NCBI RefSeq assembly: GCF_001598255.1
Contig: NZ_BCYP01000026.1
Coordinates: 62,001 to 126,000, forward strand
Length of the DNA: 64,000 nucleotides
Direction: 5' to 3'
DNA from: Mitsuaria chitosanitabida ATCC BAA-476 = NBRC 102408
Lineage (GTDB): Bacteria; Pseudomonadota; Gammaproteobacteria; Burkholderiales; Burkholderiaceae_C
In this document: positions 1,811-48,771 of the stretch, in pieces
Layout of the letters: every line of letters starts with the position of its first letter
Position numbering within the stretch: position 1 is the first letter of the stretch
Notes under the pieces: generated by a model
What the model was told of the DNA's origin: nothing
The model's input: the letters and a program-made list of their open reading frames with translations, nothing else
Database searches by the model: none
Position numbers and translations under genes: made by a program

Positions 1811-2914
1811 TCAGTCCGCCGGGACGCGCAGGGCGCGTTCGCGTTCCTTGGCGATGCGCGCCGCGAAGGCCGCCGAGGTCCCGCCGGTCGGCAGGTTGCT
1901 GACCTCCAGGATGCGGGCGCGGATCTCGGGCTGGCGCAGCGCCTCGTTGACCAGGGCGTTGATCAGCCGCAGCCGTTCCGGCGGGACGCCGCGTGGGGCG
2001 AACAGCCCGAAGGTCGAGACCAGGTTGGCCTCGGGGTAGCCGAGCTCGGCCAGCGTCGGCACCTCCGGCAGCACCGGCAGCCGCACCGGGGAGCCGATCG
2101 CCAGCGCCCTCAGCCGGCCCTGCCGCACGAACTGCAGCTGCGTCGAGGCGACGTTGGACGACAGCAGCTCGAACTGCCCGCCGATCGCGTCGGTGAGCTG
2201 CTGGCCGCCGCCCTTGTAGGGCACGTGGATGATGTCGACGCCCGCCGCGGCGCGGATCTGCGCCAGCACCATGTGGCCGACCGTCGCATGGCCCGAGGTG
2301 GCCCAGCGCAGTTGGCCGGGCGCGGCGCGGGCCGCCGCGAGCATGGCCGCGAAGCTGTCCGCCCTGAAGGACGGATGGGCCAGCACCAGCACCGGCGTGT
2401 CCATGACGCTGACCACCGGCGTGATGTCGCGCGGGCCGTCGAAGGCGGGCCGGGGCGCGGGCGCCGCGCCGGGCGTGGCGCCCGGCGGCGCGAAGACCAG
2501 CGGGCTGATCGCGCAGTAGGCGAGGGTCTGACCGTCGGGCGCGGCGCGGGCCAGCGATTCCAGCGCGGTCAGGCCGCCGGCGCCGGCGCGGTTCTCGACG
2601 ATCACAGGCACCTTCAGCCGGGCGCCGATGAACTGCGCCAGCGCGCGGGCCGTGTCGTCGCTGACGCCGCCGGGCGGATAGGCCACCAGCAGGTGCAGCG
2701 GGCGCGTCGGCCAGGCCGGCGCGCTGGAGGACGCCGACGTGCTCGTGGCCGCCGCGGCGCTTCCCGGGGCCATCGCGGCGAGGCCCGCCGCGAGGCCGCC
2801 CACGACGCCCCCCGCGATGCCGGTCGCGACGCCATCCACGAGGCCGCCCGGGGGAGCGCCCGCGAGGGCGCCGATCGCGGCCGCGGCCCGCTGGATCGCC
2901 TCGCGCCTACGCAT
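1811..2914 (-). CDS. Bug/TctC-type periplasmic solute-binding protein
   Basis: A 367-residue receptor of the tripartite tricarboxylate transporter family (Bug), which binds carboxylates in the periplasm. Diagnostic strings are LLVAYPPGGVSDDTAR near residue 75 and VENRAGAGG near residue 107; the rest follows the usual two-lobe layout. The N-terminus carries RRRE and a long Ala/Gly-rich stretch, consistent with an export signal, possibly Tat-like, with an unusually long low-complexity linker up to about residue 65. The ATG overlaps the end of the LysR gene by eight bases (ATGCGTAG), so the two are translationally coupled. No TctA/TctB membrane genes are nearby, which is common for orphan Bug genes in Burkholderiales. 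Confidence 0.9.
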   Translation of the reverse strand: MRRREAIQRAAAAIGALAGAPPGGLVDGVATGIAGGVVGGLAAGLAAMAPGSAAAATSTSASSSAPAWPTRPLHLLVAYPPGGVSDDTARALAQFIGARLKVPVIVENRAGAGGLTALESLARAAPDGQTLAYCAISPLVFAPPGATPGAAPAPRPAFDGPRDITPVVSVMDTPVLVLAHPSFRADSFAAMLAAARAAPGQLRWATSGHATVGHMVLAQIRAAAGVDIIHVPYKGGGQQLTDAIGGQFELLSSNVASTQLQFVRQGRLRALAIGSPVRLPVLPEVPTLAELGYPEANLVSTFGLFAPRGVPPERLRLINALVNEALRQPEIRARILEVSNLPTGGTSAAFAARIAKERERALRVPAD

Positions 2915-3827
2915 CGCCGTGCGCCTTCGCGATGCGGCGGGCGAGGGCGAGGAAGGTGGCCGTCGGCCCTTCCTGGTCGTGCGTCCGCCAGGCCAGCGTG
3001 AGCGGCGCCTCCAGCCGCGCGTGGCGTGGCAGCGGCCGGAACACGATGGAGTGGGCATGCACGCCACGCATCGACGCCGGCACCACCGAGATGCCGGCGC
3101 CCGCCGCGACCAGGTTGAGGTTCATCATCATCCGGTCGACCTCGACGAAGCTGCGCGGGCGCACGCCCTCGCGCTCGCACAGCGCCAGCAGGTTGGCGTA
3201 GAGGCCGGGCGCGCCGGGACGGCGCACGAGGATCAGGTCCTCGCCCTCGAGCTCGCCCAGCGGCACCGGCGTCGTCGCCGCGCGCGGCGCCTCGGCCAGG
3301 CGATGGTCCAGCGGCAGCGCCAGCAGCGCGGGTTCGCTCAGCAGGGGCTCGAAGCTCAGGCCCTCGGGCCGCGCCACCGGCACGCGCAGGAAGCCGCAGT
3401 GCAGGCGCGACTTGGCGATCGCGTCGATCAGCTCGGCGGCGTTGTTCTCGGTCATCGAGAGCGCGATGCCCGGGTGCTCCCCGCGGCACGCGCGCAGCAC
3501 CGCCGGCGTGAACGCATGCGCCGCCGCCGAGCTGGTGAAGCCCACCGACAGCAGCCCGTGCTGCCCGCCCGCGAGGCGGTCCATGCGCTCGCGCATGTCG
3601 CCGAAGTCGCGCAGCAGGCGCCTGGCTTCGTCGAGGAAGTGCCGGCCCGCGTCGGTCAGGCTCACGCCCTTGGGATGCCGGTGCAGCAGGGACAGGCCGA
3701 GCTCCTGCTCCAGCGTCTTGATCTGCTGGCTCAGCGGCGGCTGCTGCATGCCCAGCAGCGCCGCGGCGCGCGTCATGTGGCCGGTCTCCGCGACCGTCAC
3801 GAAATAGCGCAGGTGTCTCAGGTCCAT
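2907..3827 (-). CDS. LysR family transcriptional regulator
   Basis: A 306-residue LysR regulator. Residues 2-61 form the winged helix-turn-helix: LRHLRYFVTVAETGHMTRAAALLGMQQPPLSQQIKTLE has the classic spacing and the AA..L...QPPLSQQI signature. A linker helix and the substrate-binding-like effector domain follow (about 90-300). It lies directly upstream of, and overlaps, the Bug receptor gene, the usual arrangement for a regulator of carboxylate uptake. It is divergent from the porin gene at 4081, with a 253-base intergenic region that holds a spaced inverted repeat. The start is the ATG that brings the helix-turn-helix to the N-terminus; longer reading frames add only low-complexity sequence. 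Confidence 0.92.
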   Translation of the reverse strand: MDLRHLRYFVTVAETGHMTRAAALLGMQQPPLSQQIKTLEQELGLSLLHRHPKGVSLTDAGRHFLDEARRLLRDFGDMRERMDRLAGGQHGLLSVGFTSSAAAHAFTPAVLRACRGEHPGIALSMTENNAAELIDAIAKSRLHCGFLRVPVARPEGLSFEPLLSEPALLALPLDHRLAEAPRAATTPVPLGELEGEDLILVRRPGAPGLYANLLALCEREGVRPRSFVEVDRMMMNLNLVAAGAGISVVPASMRGVHAHSIVFRPLPRHARLEAPLTLAWRTHDQEGPTATFLALARRIAKAHGDA

Positions 3828-3902
3828 CGCCAGGGGTCTCCAGGTCCTTCGGGCGTGACGCGCGGCGGCCGATCGGCGCGAGGGCGCGATGGCGGCGGCG
3901 TC

Positions 3903-3961
3903 CGCTCCATATCGAAAACGTCTCGGACTCTGCGATTCAGTGTATTTGACGCTATGGAGCG
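3903..3961. promoter_or_regulatory. Spaced inverted repeat in the LysR/porin divergent region
   Basis: CGCTCCATA (3903-3911) is repeated in exact inverted form as TATGGAGCG (3953-3961), centre to centre 50 bases, close to five helical turns. The second arm sits inside the spacer of a possible plus-strand promoter, TTGACG (3946-3951) and TAAGGT (3969-3974), 17 bases apart. LysR regulators often bind two sites on one face of the helix in a divergent promoter, so this is a candidate operator for the adjacent regulator. The promoter call is weaker than the repeat. Confidence 0.5.
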
Positions 3962-4080
3962 CGGTCACTAAGGTCCGCCCCGGATAGCGCGAACGGGCCC
4001 GGCGGCATCGCCGGACCCGCGCCGACCTTCCGATCACGGTCCCGACGAGGACACGACGACAACCAGACGGAGACAAGACA

Positions 4081-5241
4081 GTGAAGAACGCATCGAGGAT
4101 GACGACGAGGTCCACGGCCGGCGCGACGACGCGCGCGGCCGACGCCGCGCGGCGGGCGAGAAGGTCGGGGCGCGCGCCGGCCCGGGCCGCGTGGATGGCG
4201 GCGGCCACGGCGACCGCGGCCTTCGCGCCGGCGGCGTGGGCGCAGGAGAGCGGCGTGCAGGTGTTCGGGCTGCTGGACATCGGCGTGCAGGCGATCAAGG
4301 CCAGCGGCGCCGACACCCGCTACTTCGTCAACAGCGACGGCAACACCTCCAGCCGCTTCGGCGTGCGCGGCACCGAGGACCTGGGCGGCGGCCTGAAGGT
4401 GGGCTTCTGGCTGGAGTCCGCCGTCTCCGTCGACGACGGCACGAGCGGCGCCACCAGCACCAACAACAAGGATTCGGTCAGCGGCGGTCTCACCTGGGGC
4501 CGCCGTGCGACGGTGCAGGTCTCCGGCCCCTGGGGCGAGCTGCGCCTGGGCCGCGACTACGTGCCCTCGTTCGGCAACCTCACGACCTCCATGCATCCCT
4601 TCGGCACCAACGGCGTGGGCAGCTCGGGGCTGATGTTCTATCCGGTCGCGGCCGGCGGCACGACGGCGCGCACCAACGTGCGGGCGTCCAACTCGATCGG
4701 CTACTTCACGCCCTCGGGCATCAACGGTTTCTACGCGCACGTGATGGTCGCGCTGGGCGAGCAGGGCGCCGGGCCCACACATCGCGACGGCGACCTGCAG
4801 GGCGCGCGCCTGGGCTGGCGCAACGAGGACATCAACGTCTCCGGCGCGATGTCCCGCACGCGCTACGCCACCGGCGACTACACGCAGAGCAACGTCGGCG
4901 CGACCTGGCAGGTCGGGCCCGCCAAGCTGATGGCGCTGTGGGGCGAGAACAAGGTCGGCGTCACCAAGACGGTGGCGCGCATGCTGGGCACGCAATGGCG
5001 GCTCGGACCCGGCGAGCTGCGTTTCGCCTACACCTGGCTGAGCGCCAAGGGCGTGGCCAGCGACGCGACGCATATCGCGATGGGCTACGTCCTCGACCTG
5101 TCCAAGCGCACGGCGCTCTACGGGAACATCGCCCGCATCGACAACAAGGGCCCCGCGATGCGCTTCAACGTCGGTGTCGCGTCGACGCTGGCCGGCGGCG
5201 ACAGCGGCGGCGTCGAGGCCGGCGTGCGCCACAACTTCTGA
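4081..5241 (+). CDS. Outer-membrane porin (Gram-negative trimeric type)
   Basis: A 386-residue general porin that forms a beta-barrel channel in the outer membrane. After the signal peptide it reads ESGVQVFGLLDIGVQ, then SRFGVRGTEDLGGGLKVGFWLES, the standard first strands of Burkholderiales porins, followed by GELRLGRDY. It ends GVEAGVRHNF, with the terminal Phe needed for BAM-dependent insertion. The start is GTG with GGAG upstream. The signal peptide is unusual: about 37 Arg/Ala/Thr-rich residues precede the hydrophobic core, with likely cleavage after AWA at residue 54. The gene is divergent from LysR and may serve uptake of the same solutes as the Bug receptor, though that is inference. 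Confidence 0.92.
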   Translation: MKNASRMTTRSTAGATTRAADAARRARRSGRAPARAAWMAAATATAAFAPAAWAQESGVQVFGLLDIGVQAIKASGADTRYFVNSDGNTSSRFGVRGTEDLGGGLKVGFWLESAVSVDDGTSGATSTNNKDSVSGGLTWGRRATVQVSGPWGELRLGRDYVPSFGNLTTSMHPFGTNGVGSSGLMFYPVAAGGTTARTNVRASNSIGYFTPSGINGFYAHVMVALGEQGAGPTHRDGDLQGARLGWRNEDINVSGAMSRTRYATGDYTQSNVGATWQVGPAKLMALWGENKVGVTKTVARMLGTQWRLGPGELRFAYTWLSAKGVASDATHIAMGYVLDLSKRTALYGNIARIDNKGPAMRFNVGVASTLAGGDSGGVEAGVRHNF

Positions 5242-5331
5242 CCCATGTCCCTCGGGCGCGTCGCCGGTCCGGTCGCGGCTTCATGGCCGCTTCAAGCCGG
5301 CGACAAGCCCCAGCAACGCAGGAGCCTCAGC

Positions 5332-6609
5332 ATGTCCTTCATGACCTCTCCCCAGCGCCTGGCCGGCGCGGCCGCGCTCGTGGCCGCGTCGCTGGCGTCC
5401 TTCGGCGCCCATGCCGAAGCCACCAGGATCCTGTTCGTCGGCAACAGCTACACCTTCGGCCGCGTCGATCCGGTGATGAGCTACAACGCCGCCAACGTCC
5501 ACGACCTCACCGCCGCGATGTACGCGACGAACCCGAGCGGGGCCAACAGCTTCGAGCCCCATCCCTGGGGCGGCGTCGCGGGCATCTTCAAGCAGTTCAC
5601 CGTCGAGGTCGGGCTGGACTACGACGTGTCCCTCTCGGCGCGCAACGCGGCCTCGCTGCGCGGGCAGTTCCTCAACAGCAACGGCGCGGGCTGGGACCTG
5701 CGCGGCAACATCGGCTCGCAGGCCTGGGACAAGGTCGTGCTGCAGGAGCAGAGCGACGAGCCGCTGACCCGGCAGCCGGGCCTGGCCTCGAACCCCGCCT
5801 ACTTCAGCACCTACGCCGATCTGATCGAGAACTGGATCCACCAGGGCAACGCGCTGAGCTACCGCGAGCGCGACCTGATCGGCGGCACGAACGCGAAGTG
5901 CGCCGACATCACCGGCGCGTCCGCCGGCACCTGCGGCACCCTGCGCAACATCCCGGCCAACGCGAACGCCAACCCGAACGCGCAGGTCTACCTGTACCAG
6001 ACCTGGGCCCGGCCCAACCTGGTCGACGCGCCAAGCCAGACGACCACCGATCCGGTGACCGGCGCCGTCATCCCGACCGGCGTGCCGGCGACCTCCTTCT
6101 ACACGAGCCTGCAGGCGATGACGGATGACCTGCGCGGCGCCTATCTCGGCGCGGCGCTGGCGGCGGGCGCGGACGGCTCGGGCGGCATCGCCGGCATCGC
6201 CCCGGTGGGCGACGCCTTCATGCGGGCGATCGCCGACGGCGTCGCGACGCCGGACATGTATGCGCCGTCGGCGATGTCGGATGGCTTGATCGACCTGTGG
6301 TTCGACGACGGCACCCATGCGAGCAAGTACGGCTCCTACTTGAGCGCGCTGACGCTGTTCGGCACGATCACCGGGCTGGATCCGGCGACGCTGGGCCTGA
6401 ACGAGATCGCGGCGCGCGACCTGGGCATCAGCGCGAAGGACGCCGGCCTGCTGCAGCGGGTCGCCAGCGCGCAGCTCGGCCTCGCCGCGGTGCCGGAGCC
6501 GGCGACGCTGGCGCTGGTCGGACTGGGCGTGGGCTTGATGTGGCTGCGTCGCCGTCGCGGCGCGGCTCCCGGCGCGATGGCGCCAGCGATGGCCGCGATG
6601 GCGGCTTGA
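5332..6609 (+). CDS. PEP-CTERM sorted, SGNH-hydrolase-like exported protein
   Basis: A 425-residue exported protein. Residues 1-28 form a signal peptide (AAALVAASLASFGAHA). The mature part starts TRILFVGNSYTFG, resembling block I of SGNH/GDSL hydrolases (GNSYT with a candidate nucleophile Ser39), and a late FDDGTHASKYGSYL supplies the Asp/His expected of such enzymes. Near residue 387 is a PEP-CTERM signal: VPEPATLALVG, a hydrophobic helix, then RRRR. This is read by exosortase, encoded elsewhere. Oddly, 17 further Ala/Met/Pro residues follow the Arg cluster. The ATG chosen has AGGAG upstream; an ATG at 5245 would add 29 residues ahead of the signal peptide. Catalysis is inferred, not shown. 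Confidence 0.82.
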   Translation: MSFMTSPQRLAGAAALVAASLASFGAHAEATRILFVGNSYTFGRVDPVMSYNAANVHDLTAAMYATNPSGANSFEPHPWGGVAGIFKQFTVEVGLDYDVSLSARNAASLRGQFLNSNGAGWDLRGNIGSQAWDKVVLQEQSDEPLTRQPGLASNPAYFSTYADLIENWIHQGNALSYRERDLIGGTNAKCADITGASAGTCGTLRNIPANANANPNAQVYLYQTWARPNLVDAPSQTTTDPVTGAVIPTGVPATSFYTSLQAMTDDLRGAYLGAALAAGADGSGGIAGIAPVGDAFMRAIADGVATPDMYAPSAMSDGLIDLWFDDGTHASKYGSYLSALTLFGTITGLDPATLGLNEIAARDLGISAKDAGLLQRVASAQLGLAAVPEPATLALVGLGVGLMWLRRRRGAAPGAMAPAMAAMAA

Positions 6610-6634: not shown

Positions 6635-8101
6635 ATGACGATGCAGGCAAACGCGCGGACGGCGCTCACGAGGCGGACGACGCGCACGGACCGCGGGACG
6701 CGCCGCATGCGAACGATGCGGATCGCGCGTTCGGGCGCATGGATCGCGCTGACGCTGAGCTTGGGCATGTCCGCCGCTGTCGCGAAAGACGCGGCGAAGG
6801 ACGCGCCGCCTTTCGTGCTCCAGGGCTCAGCGGCGACCGAGGTGACCGGCGAGGCCGCGCCCGTGCCCACGGCCTGCCCCGCGGGCGTGGGCGAGGGCAC
6901 GACCTGCCTGTCCGGGAAGGACCGGGCGGGCGCGTTCTACCTGATCGCGATGCCCCGGCAGTGGAACGGCGACCTCGTGCTGCACGCGCATGGCGGGCCT
7001 TTCCTCGGCGCGCCGACGGCCAAGCGGGTGGCGGAGGACCTGGAGCGCTGGTCGATCATGCCGAGGCTGGGCTACGCCTGGGCGGCGTCGAGCTATCGGC
7101 AGGGCGGCGTCGCCGTCACCGCCGCGGGCGAGGACACGGAGCGGCTGCGCAAGCTCTTCATCGCCAAGGTCGCCAAGCCCCGGCATGTGTGGCTGCACGG
7201 GCAGTCCTGGGGCGCGAGCGTGGCGGCCAAGGAGGCTGAGAACTTCGCGCAGGGCAAGCCCTACGACGGTGTGCTGCTGACCTCGGGCGTGCTGGGCGGC
7301 GCGACCCGGAGCTACGACTTCCGCATGGACCTGCGGGCGGTCTACCAGTACCTGTGCCACAACCACCCGCTGCCCAGCGAGCCGCAGTACCCGCTGAACA
7401 TCGGGCTGCCGCTGGACTCGACCCTGAAGCAGCACGAGCTGGCGAAGCGGGTGGACGACTGCCTGGGCCTGAACAAGCCGGCGGCCGAGCGCACGCCGGA
7501 GCAGGCGCGCAAGGTCAAGACCATCGTGGACGTGGTGCACATCCAGGAGCGCAGCATCCAGGCGCATCTGAACTGGGCGACCTGGCACTTCCAGGACGTG
7601 ACCTTCAAGCGCACCGGGGGGGCGAGTCCCTTCGGCAACGAGGGCGTGGTGTACGCGGGCTCCTCGGACGACGCCGCGCTGAATGCCGGCGTGCCGCGTT
7701 TCAAGGCCGATCCCCAGGCGATCGCGACGCTGTCGGCCGACGCCGACCTGGGCGGCCGGATCCCGGTGCCGGTGCTGACGGTGCACGCGATCCACGATCC
7801 GACGGCGATGGTGGAGTTGCAGGAGGTCTTCGGCAAGACCATGGCCGCGGCCGGTCGCGGGGATGCGCTGGTGCAGACCTACACCGGCGACAAGGACCAC
7901 AGCTACCTGAGCGATCCCACCTATGCCGCGCTGATGGAGGCGTTGACCAGCTGGGTGGAGCAGGGCCGCAAGCCGACGCCGGAGGGCATCGCGGCGGGCT
8001 GCGAGAAGGCCAAGGCGACGCTGGGCTCGACCTGCCGGTTCGAGCCGGCGTATCAGCCCAAGGACTTGGAGACGCGGATGCCCTTGCGGATGAAGCCCTG
8101 A
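6635..8101 (+). CDS. Secreted alpha/beta hydrolase
   Basis: A 488-residue alpha/beta-fold hydrolase. A hydrophobic signal segment (WIALTLSLGMSAAVA) ends near residue 50 after a long Arg/Thr-rich leader; an ATG at 6707 would give a more ordinary signal peptide. LHAHGGPF (117-124) looks like the oxyanion region, HGQSWGAS supplies nucleophile Ser191 in GxSxG, HAIHDPTAM the acid and GDKDHSYLS the His. Two Cys pairs (C81/C91 and near the C-terminus) fit a periplasmic or secreted protein. Similar proteins are annotated only as alpha/beta hydrolases, so the substrate is unknown. It follows the PEP-CTERM gene by 25 bases and may be co-transcribed. Confidence 0.82.
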   Translation: MTMQANARTALTRRTTRTDRGTRRMRTMRIARSGAWIALTLSLGMSAAVAKDAAKDAPPFVLQGSAATEVTGEAAPVPTACPAGVGEGTTCLSGKDRAGAFYLIAMPRQWNGDLVLHAHGGPFLGAPTAKRVAEDLERWSIMPRLGYAWAASSYRQGGVAVTAAGEDTERLRKLFIAKVAKPRHVWLHGQSWGASVAAKEAENFAQGKPYDGVLLTSGVLGGATRSYDFRMDLRAVYQYLCHNHPLPSEPQYPLNIGLPLDSTLKQHELAKRVDDCLGLNKPAAERTPEQARKVKTIVDVVHIQERSIQAHLNWATWHFQDVTFKRTGGASPFGNEGVVYAGSSDDAALNAGVPRFKADPQAIATLSADADLGGRIPVPVLTVHAIHDPTAMVELQEVFGKTMAAAGRGDALVQTYTGDKDHSYLSDPTYAALMEALTSWVEQGRKPTPEGIAAGCEKAKATLGSTCRFEPAYQPKDLETRMPLRMKP

Positions 8102-43313: not shown

Positions 43314-43349
43314 GGGAGCGATTGTCGGGTCTCCCTTCGCGGTGCATTG

Positions 43350-43372
43350 TTAATAAACAAAATGTTTATTAA
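43350..43372. promoter_or_regulatory. Perfect AT-rich operator palindrome
   Basis: TTAATAAAC (43350-43358), five-base AAAAT spacer, GTTTATTAA (43364-43372), an exact inverted repeat of nine-base arms in an otherwise GC-rich genome. It sits in the 114-base divergent gap, 37 bases from the phosphatase start and 55 from the questin-oxidase start, and includes TATTAA hexamers that could be -10 elements in both directions. It is the best candidate binding site for the regulator encoded at the end of the downstream operon. Confidence 0.75.
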
Positions 43373-43427
43373 ACGGGGCAACCGAGAGATGATCCTGACC
43401 ACGCCAGCAAAGAAGAAGGAGCTCGCG

Positions 43428-44384
43428 ATGATCGACATTCAGGAAGCCGAGGCCCGCGTGCAGCGGCGTGCGCTCGACGAGGCGCTCGACCAATCGGTGC
43501 GCTTCGGGCCGATGTACGGCACCGAGGCGATGCCGCTGTTCAACCATCTGCCCATGGCGCTGGGCGCGCTGGCCCGGCTGGGCGCGCCGCTGGAGGCGAT
43601 GCAGCGCCACATCGATCACTGGGCGCCGCTGTCGCGTCCCGCCCTGGATGCCGATGTCGCGCCGCCTTCCATCGACGAGGCGCTTCGCCGCGTGCTGGAC
43701 GCACCGGAGGCGCAGGCCTTCCACGTGGCGATCCGGCTCGGGTACGCGCTGCAGGGCGGGCATCGGAAGGAGCTCGACGCCGCGCTGCGGACCACGATCG
43801 GACTCGAGAGCCCGATCGGCCCGCCCGTCCCGGCCGGGGCGGGCGGCGAGCGCCTGCGCGACGTGATCGACGCGGTGCGCGTGGATCCCATCCTGGCGAT
43901 GCCGGGCATGGCCGGCACGCTGATCACCACGCGCATGCAGAACGCGGCCGCGCGGCCCGGCTTCAACGTCTACGTCCAGCGCCCGACGCTGACGCTGGAC
44001 GGCCTGGCCGAGGCCTCGCTGGCGGTCTACCTGTCGACGCTGGACTTCACCGCGCTGCATCTGGTGACGGGCACGCACGCCCTGCGCGTGATGCTGGAGA
44101 CCGCGGCCGCGCGCGGCTTGCCGGTGGACGAGGGCCAGGTCTTGCGCACCGCCTGGCGGGCCTGGCTGGGCGCCTACATCTCGATGCGCAAGCCCGCGCC
44201 GGCCTGGGCCCTGGTGCACGTGGGCAGCGCCTTCGAGGACGACTGGATCCGTGCGATGCCCTCGCTGCACGCCTCGCTGAACGATCACCGCATCAAGCTC
44301 GCCGACGCGGCGCGCGAGGAGTGGCGCCATCGCGGCTGGCCGGGGTATGCCTTGTGCCTGCGGCGCGGCGGGGCCGCAGAATGA
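43428..44384 (+). CDS. Questin oxidase-like protein (DUF4243 family)
   Basis: A 318-residue protein resembling the questin oxidase family, named for a fungal Baeyer-Villiger-type enzyme that opens the ring of an anthraquinone. The tell-tale block is MPLFNHLPMALGALARLGA near residue 35; later conserved-looking parts are LGYALQGGHRKELDAA and FTALHLVTGTHALRVML with several His residues. AAGGAG six bases ahead fixes the ATG at 43428; an ATG at 43389 is less likely. Its stop overlaps the MFS start (ATGA). The natural substrate in bacteria is unknown; assignment to an aromatic or quinone oxygenation is by family name only. Confidence 0.78.
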   Translation: MIDIQEAEARVQRRALDEALDQSVRFGPMYGTEAMPLFNHLPMALGALARLGAPLEAMQRHIDHWAPLSRPALDADVAPPSIDEALRRVLDAPEAQAFHVAIRLGYALQGGHRKELDAALRTTIGLESPIGPPVPAGAGGERLRDVIDAVRVDPILAMPGMAGTLITTRMQNAAARPGFNVYVQRPTLTLDGLAEASLAVYLSTLDFTALHLVTGTHALRVMLETAAARGLPVDEGQVLRTAWRAWLGAYISMRKPAPAWALVHVGSAFEDDWIRAMPSLHASLNDHRIKLADAAREEWRHRGWPGYALCLRRGGAAE

Positions 44385-45637
44385 GCGCCGTGCTGTCCTC
44401 CTCCACTCCCCCGATCGCGGCGCCCTCCGCGCCGCTGCGCCATCCGCACCTGCTGCTCTGGGCGGTCTGCGCGCTGGCGCTGATGAGCACCGCCGGCGTC
44501 GCGCTGCCGTATCCCATCCTCGCGCCGATCTTCGTCGGCGGTCCGGTGGACGGCTTCACCCATTTCGCCGGCCTGCGGCCCGAGCTGCTGATGGGCCTGG
44601 CCCTGGCGGTGAACCCGGCCGGCATCCTGGCCGGCAGCCTGGTGGTCGGGCCCATGTCCGACCGCTACGGGCGGCGCCGCGTGCTCGGCGTCACCATCAC
44701 CGCGACCCTGGTCGGCTACGGCTTGAGCGCCTTCGCGCTGGCCTCGCGGGACTATCCGCTGTTCGTGCTGTCGCGCTTCGCCACCGGCCTGACCGAGGGC
44801 AACGTGGCGGTCGTGCGGGCGCTGCTGGCCGACTGGCATCCGCAGCTGGAGCGCACGCGCAGCTTCGCTTGGCTCAACGCCAGCCTGTACATCGGCTGGC
44901 TGGTGGGGCCGCTGCTCGGCGGCCTGACCTTGCCCTGGGGCGAGGGCGTGCCCTTCATGGTCGCGGCGGCGGTGCTGGTGCCGTGCCTGCTGCTGCTCGG
45001 CCTGGGCCTGCCCGACGACCGGCCCGCGCAGGCGCCCGAGGGCGGCATGCTCGCCGCGATGCGGCGCCAGCAGTCGCTGGGGCTGGTGGTGCAGGACCCG
45101 GTGCTGCGGCATCTGGCGCTGCTGCAGCTGGCCTACACGCTGGGCGTGAACGCGCTGTACGAGTTCGCGCCGTTGTGGATGTTCCAGCAGGCCGGACTGG
45201 ACAGCCGCGGCATCGCGCTGGTGACCGCCTTCCAATGCGCCGCGATGACGGCCGCCAGCGTGATCGCGGCGCGCATCGGCTCCGGCCCGGCGCCGCTGCA
45301 TCGGGCGGCGAGGTTCGCGGTCGTGGCCTCGGTCGGCCTGCTGGCGCTGAGCCTCGCGCCCTCCTGGGCCGGGCTGTTGCTGATTCCCTTGCTGGGCATT
45401 CCGCTGTCCTTCTACAACGCGCTGATGCCGGCGTGGATGTCGGAGCGCTTCGCCGGGCACGGACAGGGCCGCGTGATGGGCCTGCTGACGACGACCTTCT
45501 GCCTGTCCAACACGCTGATCGCCCTGATCGGCGGCGCGCTGGGCATGTTGTCGGCGCGATGGATCATGCTGCTGGGCGGCACGATGTGCCTGCTCGCCGC
45601 CATCGGCTTCATCCGCTTCGCGAGGCGCCATTCATGA
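44381..45637 (+). CDS. MFS transporter
   Basis: A 418-residue major facilitator protein with 12 hydrophobic segments. The loop 2-3 signature reads GPMSDRYGRRRVLG, and a related RSFAWLNASLYIGWLVGPLLGG follows in helix 5. It looks like a drug/metabolite exporter. It overlaps the enzyme gene before it and the regulator after it by four bases each (ATGA), so it likely exports the substrate or product of the questin-oxidase-like enzyme. The Ala/Ser-rich first 20 residues are cytoplasmic. Confidence 0.9.
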   Translation: MSAVLSSSTPPIAAPSAPLRHPHLLLWAVCALALMSTAGVALPYPILAPIFVGGPVDGFTHFAGLRPELLMGLALAVNPAGILAGSLVVGPMSDRYGRRRVLGVTITATLVGYGLSAFALASRDYPLFVLSRFATGLTEGNVAVVRALLADWHPQLERTRSFAWLNASLYIGWLVGPLLGGLTLPWGEGVPFMVAAAVLVPCLLLLGLGLPDDRPAQAPEGGMLAAMRRQQSLGLVVQDPVLRHLALLQLAYTLGVNALYEFAPLWMFQQAGLDSRGIALVTAFQCAAMTAASVIAARIGSGPAPLHRAARFAVVASVGLLALSLAPSWAGLLLIPLLGIPLSFYNALMPAWMSERFAGHGQGRVMGLLTTTFCLSNTLIALIGGALGMLSARWIMLLGGTMCLLAAIGFIRFARRHS

Positions 45638-46281
45638 GTCAGGGGAACGAGGACCGGCTGCTGTACGAGATCAAGAGCCGCGGGCCGCAGCCGGTCGCCG
45701 CGCTGGCCGCGGCCTTGGCCATCACGCCGATGGGCGCGCACAAGCTGCTGGCGCGGCTCGAGGAGCAGGGGCTCGTCGAGGCGCGCGAGGAGGACGGGCA
45801 GGAGACCCGCGTCGGGCGGCCGCGCAAGCTGTGGTCCTTGACGTCGGCGGGACATGGCCGCTTCCCCGATCGGCATGGGGATCTGACCGTGCAGCTGATC
45901 CAGCAGGCGCGGGCGGTCTTCGGCGAGGCGGGCCTGGATCAGCTGATCGCCGCGCGGGAGCGCGACAGCGAGCAGCGCTATCGCGCCGCGCTGGCGCGTT
46001 GCCGCACGACCGGCGACGCGGTGAAGGAGCTCGCCCGGCTCCGCGCCGAGGAGGGCTACATGGCCCGCGCCGAGCGCGTCGGCCGCGACTGGGTGCTGAT
46101 CGAGGATCATTGCCCGATCTGCGCCGCCGCGCAGAGCTGCCAGGGCTTCTGCCGCTCGGAGCTGGCGCTGTTCCAACGCTGCCTGGGGCCAGGTCTTGCC
46201 GTCGAACGCACCGAACACCTGCTCGCCGGCGCCCGGCGCTGCGCCTATCGTGTCAGCGCGGTGGAAGCGGACGCGGCCTGA
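45634..46281 (+). CDS. SufR-like winged-helix regulator with Cys cluster
   Basis: A 215-residue transcriptional regulator. Residues 5-72 form a DeoR/ArsR-like winged helix (YEIKSRGPQPVAALAAALAITPMGAHKLLARLEEQGLVEA, then GRPRKLWSLTSAG). The C-terminal part has Cys160, 163, 169, 173, 183 and 203 in DHCPICAAAQSCQGFCRSEL...RRCAY. The C160-x12-C173 pair and the later C203 resemble, from memory, the iron-sulfur ligands of SufR (COG2345-type). The three-gene overlap chain suggests autoregulation through the palindrome at 43350. Iron-sulfur binding is inferred; a zinc site is the main alternative. Confidence 0.82.
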   Translation: MSQGNEDRLLYEIKSRGPQPVAALAAALAITPMGAHKLLARLEEQGLVEAREEDGQETRVGRPRKLWSLTSAGHGRFPDRHGDLTVQLIQQARAVFGEAGLDQLIAARERDSEQRYRAALARCRTTGDAVKELARLRAEEGYMARAERVGRDWVLIEDHCPICAAAQSCQGFCRSELALFQRCLGPGLAVERTEHLLAGARRCAYRVSAVEADAA

Positions 46282-48129: not shown

Positions 48130-48771
48130 ATGCGCACGATCGATTTCTACTTCGACCCGATCTCGCCTTACGCCGCCTTGGCGTTCGAGCGGCTGCCCGA
48201 GGCGCTCGCGGGACGCAGCGTCGCGGTGCGCTACGTGCCGATCCTCTTCGGCGCGATGCTGAAGTCGCTCGAGCACAAGGGGCCGGCCGAGATCCCCGGC
48301 AAGCGCGACTGGACCTATCGCCAGGTGCTGTGGCAAGGGCATCGGATGGGGATCCCGCTGGACCTGCCGGCGGCGCATCCCTTCAATCCGCTGGGGCTGC
48401 TGCGCCTGCTCTGGGCCACGGCGGACGCCGGTCGGACGCCGGGGCGATACGCCGTCGAGCGCGTGCTGCGGCATGTCTGGCGCGGCGGCGAGGACGCGGC
48501 CGATCCGGCGCGCCTCGCGGCGCTGACGGCGGACCTGGCGTCGCGTCGGGATCCGGCCTCCGACGAGGTCAAGGCGGCGGTGCGTGAAGCCACCGACGCG
48601 GCCATCGCCCGGGGCGTCTTCGGCGTGCCGACGATGGGCGTCGACGACAAGCTGTTCTGGGGGCTGGACGCGATCGACATGCTGACGGGCTATCTGGATG
48701 GCGATGCGTGGTTCGACGGGCCGGGATGGGCCGCGGCCGCCGCGTTGCCGGCGGGCGTCAGGAGGGGGTGA
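48130..48771 (+). CDS. 2-hydroxychromene-2-carboxylate isomerase/DsbA-family protein
   Basis: A 213-residue thioredoxin-fold protein of the kappa-GST/HCCA-isomerase family: TIDFYFDPISPYAALAFERLPE at the start with the Ser-Pro pair in place of CxxC, PFNPLGLLRLLWA, and ARGVFGVPTMGVDDKLFWGLDAIDML. Family members act on hydroxychromene carboxylate in naphthalene catabolism or serve as glutathione transferases. No aromatic degradation genes are adjacent, so the specific role is open. Confidence 0.87.
   Translation: MRTIDFYFDPISPYAALAFERLPEALAGRSVAVRYVPILFGAMLKSLEHKGPAEIPGKRDWTYRQVLWQGHRMGIPLDLPAAHPFNPLGLLRLLWATADAGRTPGRYAVERVLRHVWRGGEDAADPARLAALTADLASRRDPASDEVKAAVREATDAAIARGVFGVPTMGVDDKLFWGLDAIDMLTGYLDGDAWFDGPGWAAAAALPAGVRRG

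Follow-up and report, generated by a model that had tools for sequence, protein, structure and literature searches.

The window analyzed here, a whole stretch of 64,000 nucleotides from contig NZ_BCYP01000026.1 of Mitsuaria chitosanitabida, belongs to the 5.8-Mb genome of a soil-type bacterium of the Roseateles/Mitsuaria group. It carries a three-gene operon for a questin-oxidase-like enzyme, a pump of the major facilitator superfamily and a SufR-like winged-helix regulator, for which the working names QOX, MFS and REG are used. A perfect palindrome lies upstream of the operon, and it is most simply the operator of REG, because the site tracks the MFS and REG genes across relatives. The features are as follows:

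43428 to 44384, plus strand: QOX, questin-oxidase-like (PF14027), a putative non-heme-iron hydroquinone dioxygenase, which has lost the N-terminal VOC domain that most orthologues carry
44381 to 45637, plus strand: MFS exporter (MFS_1), presumably of the drug-efflux DHA1 type
45634 to 46281, plus strand: REG, SufR-like winged-helix regulator with C160, C173 and C203 plus C163 and C169
43350 to 43372, no strand: putative operator, perfect palindrome TTAATAAACAAAATGTTTATTAA
42837 to 43313, minus strand: DSP/tyrosine-phosphatase-like gene (PF22784/PF13350), divergent from the operon

A first-pass annotation of the window had described three genes overlapped by ATGA, and the coordinates of the open reading frames (ORFs) confirm this for both junctions, QOX/MFS and MFS/REG. 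Its starting position, 43314, holds as the edge of the divergent gap but not as the start of QOX, for which the likeliest codon is the ATG at 43428, preceded by AAGGAG. The neighbors of REG in the window are the phosphatase, QOX, MFS and a thioesterase, with no adjacent suf operon. The pump matches MFS_1 of Pfam with 122.7 bits. Its score against the NCBIfam Tet efflux model, 74.8 bits, is far under the cut-off of 475 and amounts to a distant likeness, so that identity as a tetracycline pump is rejected.

The Palindrome and Its Conservation

The palindrome reported by the first-pass annotation is indeed perfect; each arm measures 10 bp and the loop 3 nt. Its chance expectation in the window is 0.00 and it is the single match there; the whole genome has one site, and no second one appears at up to three mismatches, just as no second SufR-type match was found in the genome. 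For comparison among relatives, the pattern TAAAC-N5/6-GTTTA with at most one mismatch was sought in 14 congeneric gaps and at 15 loci of the order sample with a strong REG match, 29 loci in total. As in the window, the site is found in 12 of the 14 congeneric gaps, beginning at base 40–42 of the gap in 11 and at base 55 in one (G012). It is missing from the gaps of G014 and G015, the two operons that lack MFS; in the latter, where the order is VOC-QOX-REG, the site is seen only at two mismatches.

Outside the genus, seven of the nine MFS-REG pairs of the order sample have the site, with a spacer of N6, and it is absent from the tested gap of each of the six remaining loci, where REG has different surroundings (RND, divergent MFS, suf or unclear). 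The RND labels of three of these (L105, L106, L108) are our own sequence reading; there the gap before REG was tested, not that before the pump genes, and the whole loci are also without a match. Beyond the tested gaps, only one match to the pattern occurs across all 29 loci. A second set comprised those of the 20 closest loci that are not members of the genus set; among the 20, the nearest are named Roseateles/Mitsuaria, with two metagenome-assembled genomes named Rubrivivax. Eight of its nine MFS-REG loci have the site at the same threshold, which brings the two non-genus sets together to 15 of 18 pairs, and a one-mismatch match precedes REG in two of the three other loci of this set (L018–L020). 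When the gap of the window was subjected to mononucleotide shuffling, 13 of 2000 shuffles gave a match. A chance palindrome is ruled out by the zero expectation, the single genomic site and the conservation in congeneric and non-genus gaps. Two weaker forms may be recorded beside these counts: L099 has only a TAAAT/ATTTA palindrome, and L101 has a related imperfect palindrome that was left uncounted.

Since both divergent genes share the gap that holds the palindrome, with the start codon of the phosphatase gene 36 bp away, and since its link to REG is drawn from sequence, the palindrome might instead serve the phosphatase gene or another regulator. This is very improbable: the palindrome is absent from the congener G014 (locus L128), where the phosphatase stays and MFS and REG are gone, and the site recurs before MFS-REG in other families, where a phosphatase query finds nothing within the loci. 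The phosphatase adjoins some form of the operon in 14 of the 15 other genus genomes; in the remaining one, G006, the stretch holds none of the queried genes. The facing gene of the first-pass annotation is there, as a divergent gene of DSP type, but it is probably a resident neighbor and no member of the system.

REG, a SufR-Like Regulator with Additional Cysteines

By its sequence, REG is homologous to SufR. Cysteines stand at positions 123, 160, 163, 169, 173, 183 and 203, which bears out the Cys160-x12-Cys173, the Cys203 and the extra cysteines of the first-pass annotation. REG homologues occur in 31 of the 399 genomes of the order sample, 16 of them strong, including the window's own; three weak loci (L112–L114) gave no REG match and were dropped. 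Twenty-seven sequences were aligned: 13 from the 15 wide loci (omitting L099 and L106, which are like L098 and L105), four from the 20 closest loci, those of all nine plasmid loci and that of the window. C160, C173 and C203, which correspond to the three cluster cysteines of SufR (C-x12-C-xn-C), are present in 27 of 27, C163 in 26 and C169 in 25. In a closer set, consisting of the window and 19 of the 20 closest loci (the match in L021 is broken into two frames), all five are present in 20 of 20. The spacing of 13 and 30 residues in REG compares with 13 and 28 in SufR of Mycobacterium tuberculosis (C203, C216, C244), for which a requirement for the equivalent cysteines and a bound iron-sulfur (Fe-S) cluster are reported (PMC6034842).

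The genomic surroundings of the homologues are varied. Six of the nine plasmid loci are annotated: a superoxide dismutase gene is divergent from REG in three, and the others show an RND/TolC pump, a divergent MFS pump and, as the nearest upstream gene, a pyrroloquinoline quinone (PQQ) dehydrogenase 1.7 kb away (one each). The homologues divergent from superoxide dismutase are those of L043, L044 and L047, and that of L044 also adjoins ferredoxin and flavin reductase genes. The homologue in L111 (G227, 2492–6301) is transcribed away from a cluster in which Pfam identifies SufB; the cluster also encodes an ABC ATPase, assigned as SufC from its position, and a single unassigned ORF lies in between. 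This homologue, the sole suf-bordering one among those examined, has only the three classical SufR cysteines and lacks C163 and C169, and that of L043, beside superoxide dismutase, lacks C169. The two extra cysteines, found in nearly all relatives linked to efflux or superoxide dismutase, are possibly a functional marker.

Is REG an Fe-S protein at all? Its helix-turn-helix half resembles MarR/ArsR types in the structural model, including the zinc-responsive ZitR, some plasmid relatives are annotated 'metalloregulator ArsR/SmtB', and the additional cysteines form a CPIC-x5-C-x3-C arrangement. REG could on these grounds be a ligand-binding or a zinc/thiol regulator whose five cysteines bind zinc or form disulfides. 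We consider this quite unlikely, as the spacing and invariance of the cysteines match SufR and the homologue that neighbors suf has just the three SufR cysteines.

QOX, a Putative Hydroquinone Dioxygenase

QOX matches PF14027 with 40.5 bits, against a gathering cut-off of 27, and its best-scoring stretch spans no more than positions 244–337 of the profile. Its AlphaFold model, built with 6 sequences (pLDDT 72, pTM 0.75), finds the hydroquinone dioxygenase PaD (8z4r/8z4q) among the folds of the PDB with a probability of 1.00 and a TMq of 0.57–0.58, and the next match has a probability of only 0.06. PaD itself would be a member of the questin-oxidase family. PDB sequence searches with the REG or QOX of the window gave no useful match, and a search with a QOX-only profile gave none.

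All 16 QOX proteins compared share four histidines and one lysine (H40, H99, H211, H287 and K290), and these residues are likewise invariant in the window protein and 14 others. The iron ligands of BTG13 (7y3w) are reportedly four histidines and a carboxylated lysine, Lys377. By our own count, an HxxK motif in L037, a bacterial relative, falls opposite K377 of 7y3w, in a stretch that scores below 0 bits. The four histidines and the lysine of QOX are therefore only candidate ligands, which would fit such an iron site. In fungal questin cleavage, a reductase is described as making the hydroquinone, which the dioxygenase then cleaves (PMC9890505).

Turnover of Modules in the Genus

The genus set comprises 16 genomes including that of the window, and REG is present in 14. 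An N-terminal glyoxalase-type (VOC) domain is fused to QOX in 10 of the 12 congeners with QOX and is deleted in the window; the first-pass annotation had missed both the fusion and the shortened QOX. The full set, with a VOC-QOX fusion, MFS and REG, occurs in eight of the 16 genomes. QOX without VOC accompanies MFS and REG in three (window, G001, G008), and VOC without QOX does so in two (G011, G012). One genome has VOC-QOX and REG without MFS (G015), one VOC-QOX alone (G014) and one nothing (G006). Thus the three-gene set is not fixed: VOC, QOX and MFS come and go, and MFS-REG is the recurrent core.

The VOC part is matched by PF00903 (Glyoxalase), and its structure matches are of VOC type, with 3ey7 the best and FosA next. 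A histidine, a histidine and a glutamate, which we take to be metal ligands, stand at three positions in 12 of 12. According to trees of flanking genes, the loss of VOC in the window is separate from that in G001 and G008, whose relative G003 keeps the domain. By our own Nei-Gojobori script, the dN/dS of the VOC-less QOX of the window is 0.24–0.38 against three relatives, as compared with 0.14–0.35 for five other pairs. Because its frame is open and its dN/dS low, QOX is probably in use without VOC, and a pseudogene left by the loss of VOC is ruled out on the same grounds.

Relocation of VOC within the genome was also considered and rejected: only a distant glyoxalase-like paralogue was found, at 554–937 of the window with 35% identity to the lost domain, and a similar one exists in both congeners also searched. 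If either VOC or QOX is absent, the domain that is left carries a low-complexity Ser/Pro-rich head or Gln/Pro-rich tail (L115 of G001, 7256–7450; L126 of G012, 5060–5178). Downstream of the operon, at 48130–48771, an ORF looks by eye like 2-hydroxychromene-2-carboxylate isomerase of GST-kappa type, an aromatic-ring enzyme.

QOX and REG beyond the Genus

PF14027 is rare: matches were found in five of 369 genomes of the class, 15 of 399 of the order (14 over the cut-off) and five of 398 of the phylum (four over the cut-off), the window genome being included each time, and in none of 14 control genomes. The expectation of the first-pass annotation that the genes would be linked in other genomes is borne out within the genus and in one distant gammaproteobacterium, and such linkage is rare beyond. 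In the latter genome (G750, L136, 5584–8008), a REG homologue with 44% identity and all five cysteines is divergent from a pair of genes for a flavin mononucleotide (FMN) reductase (PF03358) and a QOX with a PF14027 score of 109 bits, which overlap by 11 bp. By analogy, this pair would match the reduce-then-cleave chemistry of fungi. Its gap has two one-mismatch operator-like sites, and the rest of the 14.5-kb locus holds two further matches. The AT content of this gap is 72%; among 2000 shuffles, 119 produced one match or more and five produced two or more. When the class sample was searched with the regulator of G750, seven of 321 genomes matched, three of them strongly (G750, the window's own and G570). 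Two further genomes, G313 and G375, have both QOX and REG, on different contigs. Redox partners are also seen on two Rhizobium plasmids: in L162 (3472–5957) a flavin adenine dinucleotide (FAD) oxidoreductase gene overlaps QOX in one operon, and in L161 (4037–7468) QOX is preceded on its own strand by an SDR gene and has an FAD oxidoreductase gene beside it on the opposite strand. As FAD oxidoreductases stand beside QOX in both loci, bacterial questin-oxidase genes may commonly have a redox partner.

Does QOX, then, belong to the function of the operon? MFS-REG without QOX is the commonest form among the wide non-genus loci (9 of 15), and homologous regulators adjoin superoxide dismutase, RND pumps and the suf cluster. 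On this evidence the operon could be an autoregulated MFS-REG efflux operon that senses general iron or Fe-S/superoxide stress, with QOX a late-captured passenger acting on an unrelated substrate. Such a passenger is an unlikely explanation, given that QOX is kept in 13 of the 16 genus genomes (12 with REG, 11 with the site at no more than one mismatch), has a low dN/dS and is linked once more to a REG homologue in G750.

It is also improbable that the operon is biosynthetic or catabolic, with QOX tailoring or degrading an aromatic metabolite made or eaten by the cell and MFS moving it. The characterized fungal relatives do belong to aromatic polyketide pathways, as a review describes them (PMC9890505), and a Rhizobium locus combines QOX with an FAD oxidoreductase and amidohydrolases. 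The operon, however, holds no further pathway gene. Protection fits better than a pathway, since regulator and exporter form the conserved core and VOC and QOX are independently dispensable.

A Model for the Operon

Our preferred reading, held with slightly better than even confidence, is an Fe-S-sensed, autorepressed operon for detoxification and efflux directed against quinone/hydroquinone redox cyclers. REG would be a dimer of SufR type carrying an oxygen- or redox-labile Fe-S cluster on C160, C173 and C203, which C163 and/or C169 may join. Bound to the TTAATAAAC-N5-GTTTATTAA palindrome, it would repress QOX-MFS-REG. A redox-cycling quinone-like compound, or superoxide arising from it, would damage or oxidize the cluster and so cause REG to release the DNA. 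QOX, as a non-heme-iron dioxygenase of BTG13/PaD type, would then cleave the ring of the reduced (hydroquinone) form, and the MFS pump would export the parent compound or the product, until freshly made REG, its cluster restored, closes the operon once more. The VOC domain, fused to QOX in most congeners that have this enzyme, would add a second metal-dependent step there. The first-pass annotation had spoken of a redox- or ligand-sensed system for an aromatic or quinone-like compound. Conservation among relatives supports its operon, its SufR-like regulator and its operator; the terms redox-sensed and quinone-like find indirect support in the cluster cysteines, the neighboring superoxide dismutase and suf genes, the hydroquinone-dioxygenase fold and the reductase-QOX operon beside a homologous regulator.

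Several observations weigh against this model. Two MFS-REG pairs (L098, L099) have no TAAAC/GTTTA motif, a third locus (L012) has it only at two mismatches, and no sigma-70-like promoter was found by consensus in the divergent gap. REG scores 97.3 bits with the SufR profile TIGR02702, under the cut-off of 178.8; the low score alone says little, because the profile also matches in 12 of the 14 control genomes. Of 22 genomes outside the genus that matched PF14027 or QOX, only G750 has QOX adjoining REG, and in the other 21 no REG lies within about 1.5 kb on each side (less at contig ends, more for six). QOX is missing from the nine MFS-REG pairs of the order sample and from the two congeners that have VOC alone of the two domains (G011, G012), so that QOX is accessory. 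G570 has a close REG (48%) with no QOX match and no site in its 3.6-kb locus, and QOX is absent from two relatives of G750. The confidence of the QOX model is moderate, and the candidate ligand set leans on the ligands reported for BTG13 and on an alignment stretch below significance. GedK is called cofactor-free in a review (PMC9890505), which speaks against iron unless the later BTG13 work holds.

A wider proposal can be put forward only tentatively, with somewhat less than even confidence. The five-cysteine branch of SufR-like proteins may represent proteobacterial Fe-S redox sensors that moved from suf control to the control of efflux pumps and superoxide dismutase and also, in the window and the distant gammaproteobacterium, of a hydroquinone-cleaving dioxygenase whose type is familiar from the polyketide pathways of fungi. 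They would provide a bacterial reduce-cleave-export defense against quinone-type antimicrobials, in which the modules VOC, QOX and FMN reductase are swapped under one type of operator. If this is true, a family of Fe-S sensors whose known role is in cluster biogenesis becomes linked to xenobiotic defense, and bacterial genes of the questin-oxidase family gain a testable role in quinone detoxification. With a single operator and a single regulator, the idea is cheap to test.

Comparison with Known Systems

Each part is of a known kind, and a description of the combination was not found: titles and abstract starts of the open-licence literature yielded neither a questin-oxidase/MFS/SufR-like operon nor a study of a bacterial questin oxidase. 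SufR (cyanobacterial sll0088; M. tuberculosis Rv1460) shares with REG the winged helix and the C-x12-C-xn-C cluster cysteines, and is reported to repress its neighboring operon and, in cyanobacteria, also itself (PMC7058544, PMC6034842). REG differs in its predicted target, which is efflux and a dioxygenase rather than suf, in its two extra conserved cysteines, in its AT-rich TAAAC/GTTTA operator and in its place under the TIGR02702 cut-off. With the questin-oxidase family (GedK, BTG13 7y3w, AflY 8yxs, PaD 8z4r), QOX shares the PF14027 match, the PaD fold, the conserved histidines and the lysine of HxxK. Unlike the fungal enzymes, it is bacterial, about 320 amino acids long and mostly fused to VOC in congeners, and it is found in a stress-type operon with an exporter, not in a polyketide cluster.

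SoxR, an Fe-S sensor of redox cyclers, controls efflux pumps and oxygenases; it is an activator of the MerR family, with a fold, cluster motif and operator different from those of REG. The quinone systems of Firmicutes, MhqR/mhqRED and QsrR/YodB, are described as having a local repressor on an inverted repeat together with ring-cleavage dioxygenases and quinone reductases, and MhqR as a repressor of MarR type whose quinone sensing involves no thiol mechanism (PMC6798810). As presented in that source, mhqRED comprises a dioxygenase and an esterase, with neither a questin-oxidase-type enzyme nor an MFS pump. The window likewise has a putative local inverted-repeat operator beside a regulator and a predicted ring-cleavage dioxygenase. 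By analogy, the operon would be functionally close to the MhqR/QsrR quinone systems, from which it differs in the type of sensor and the type of dioxygenase.

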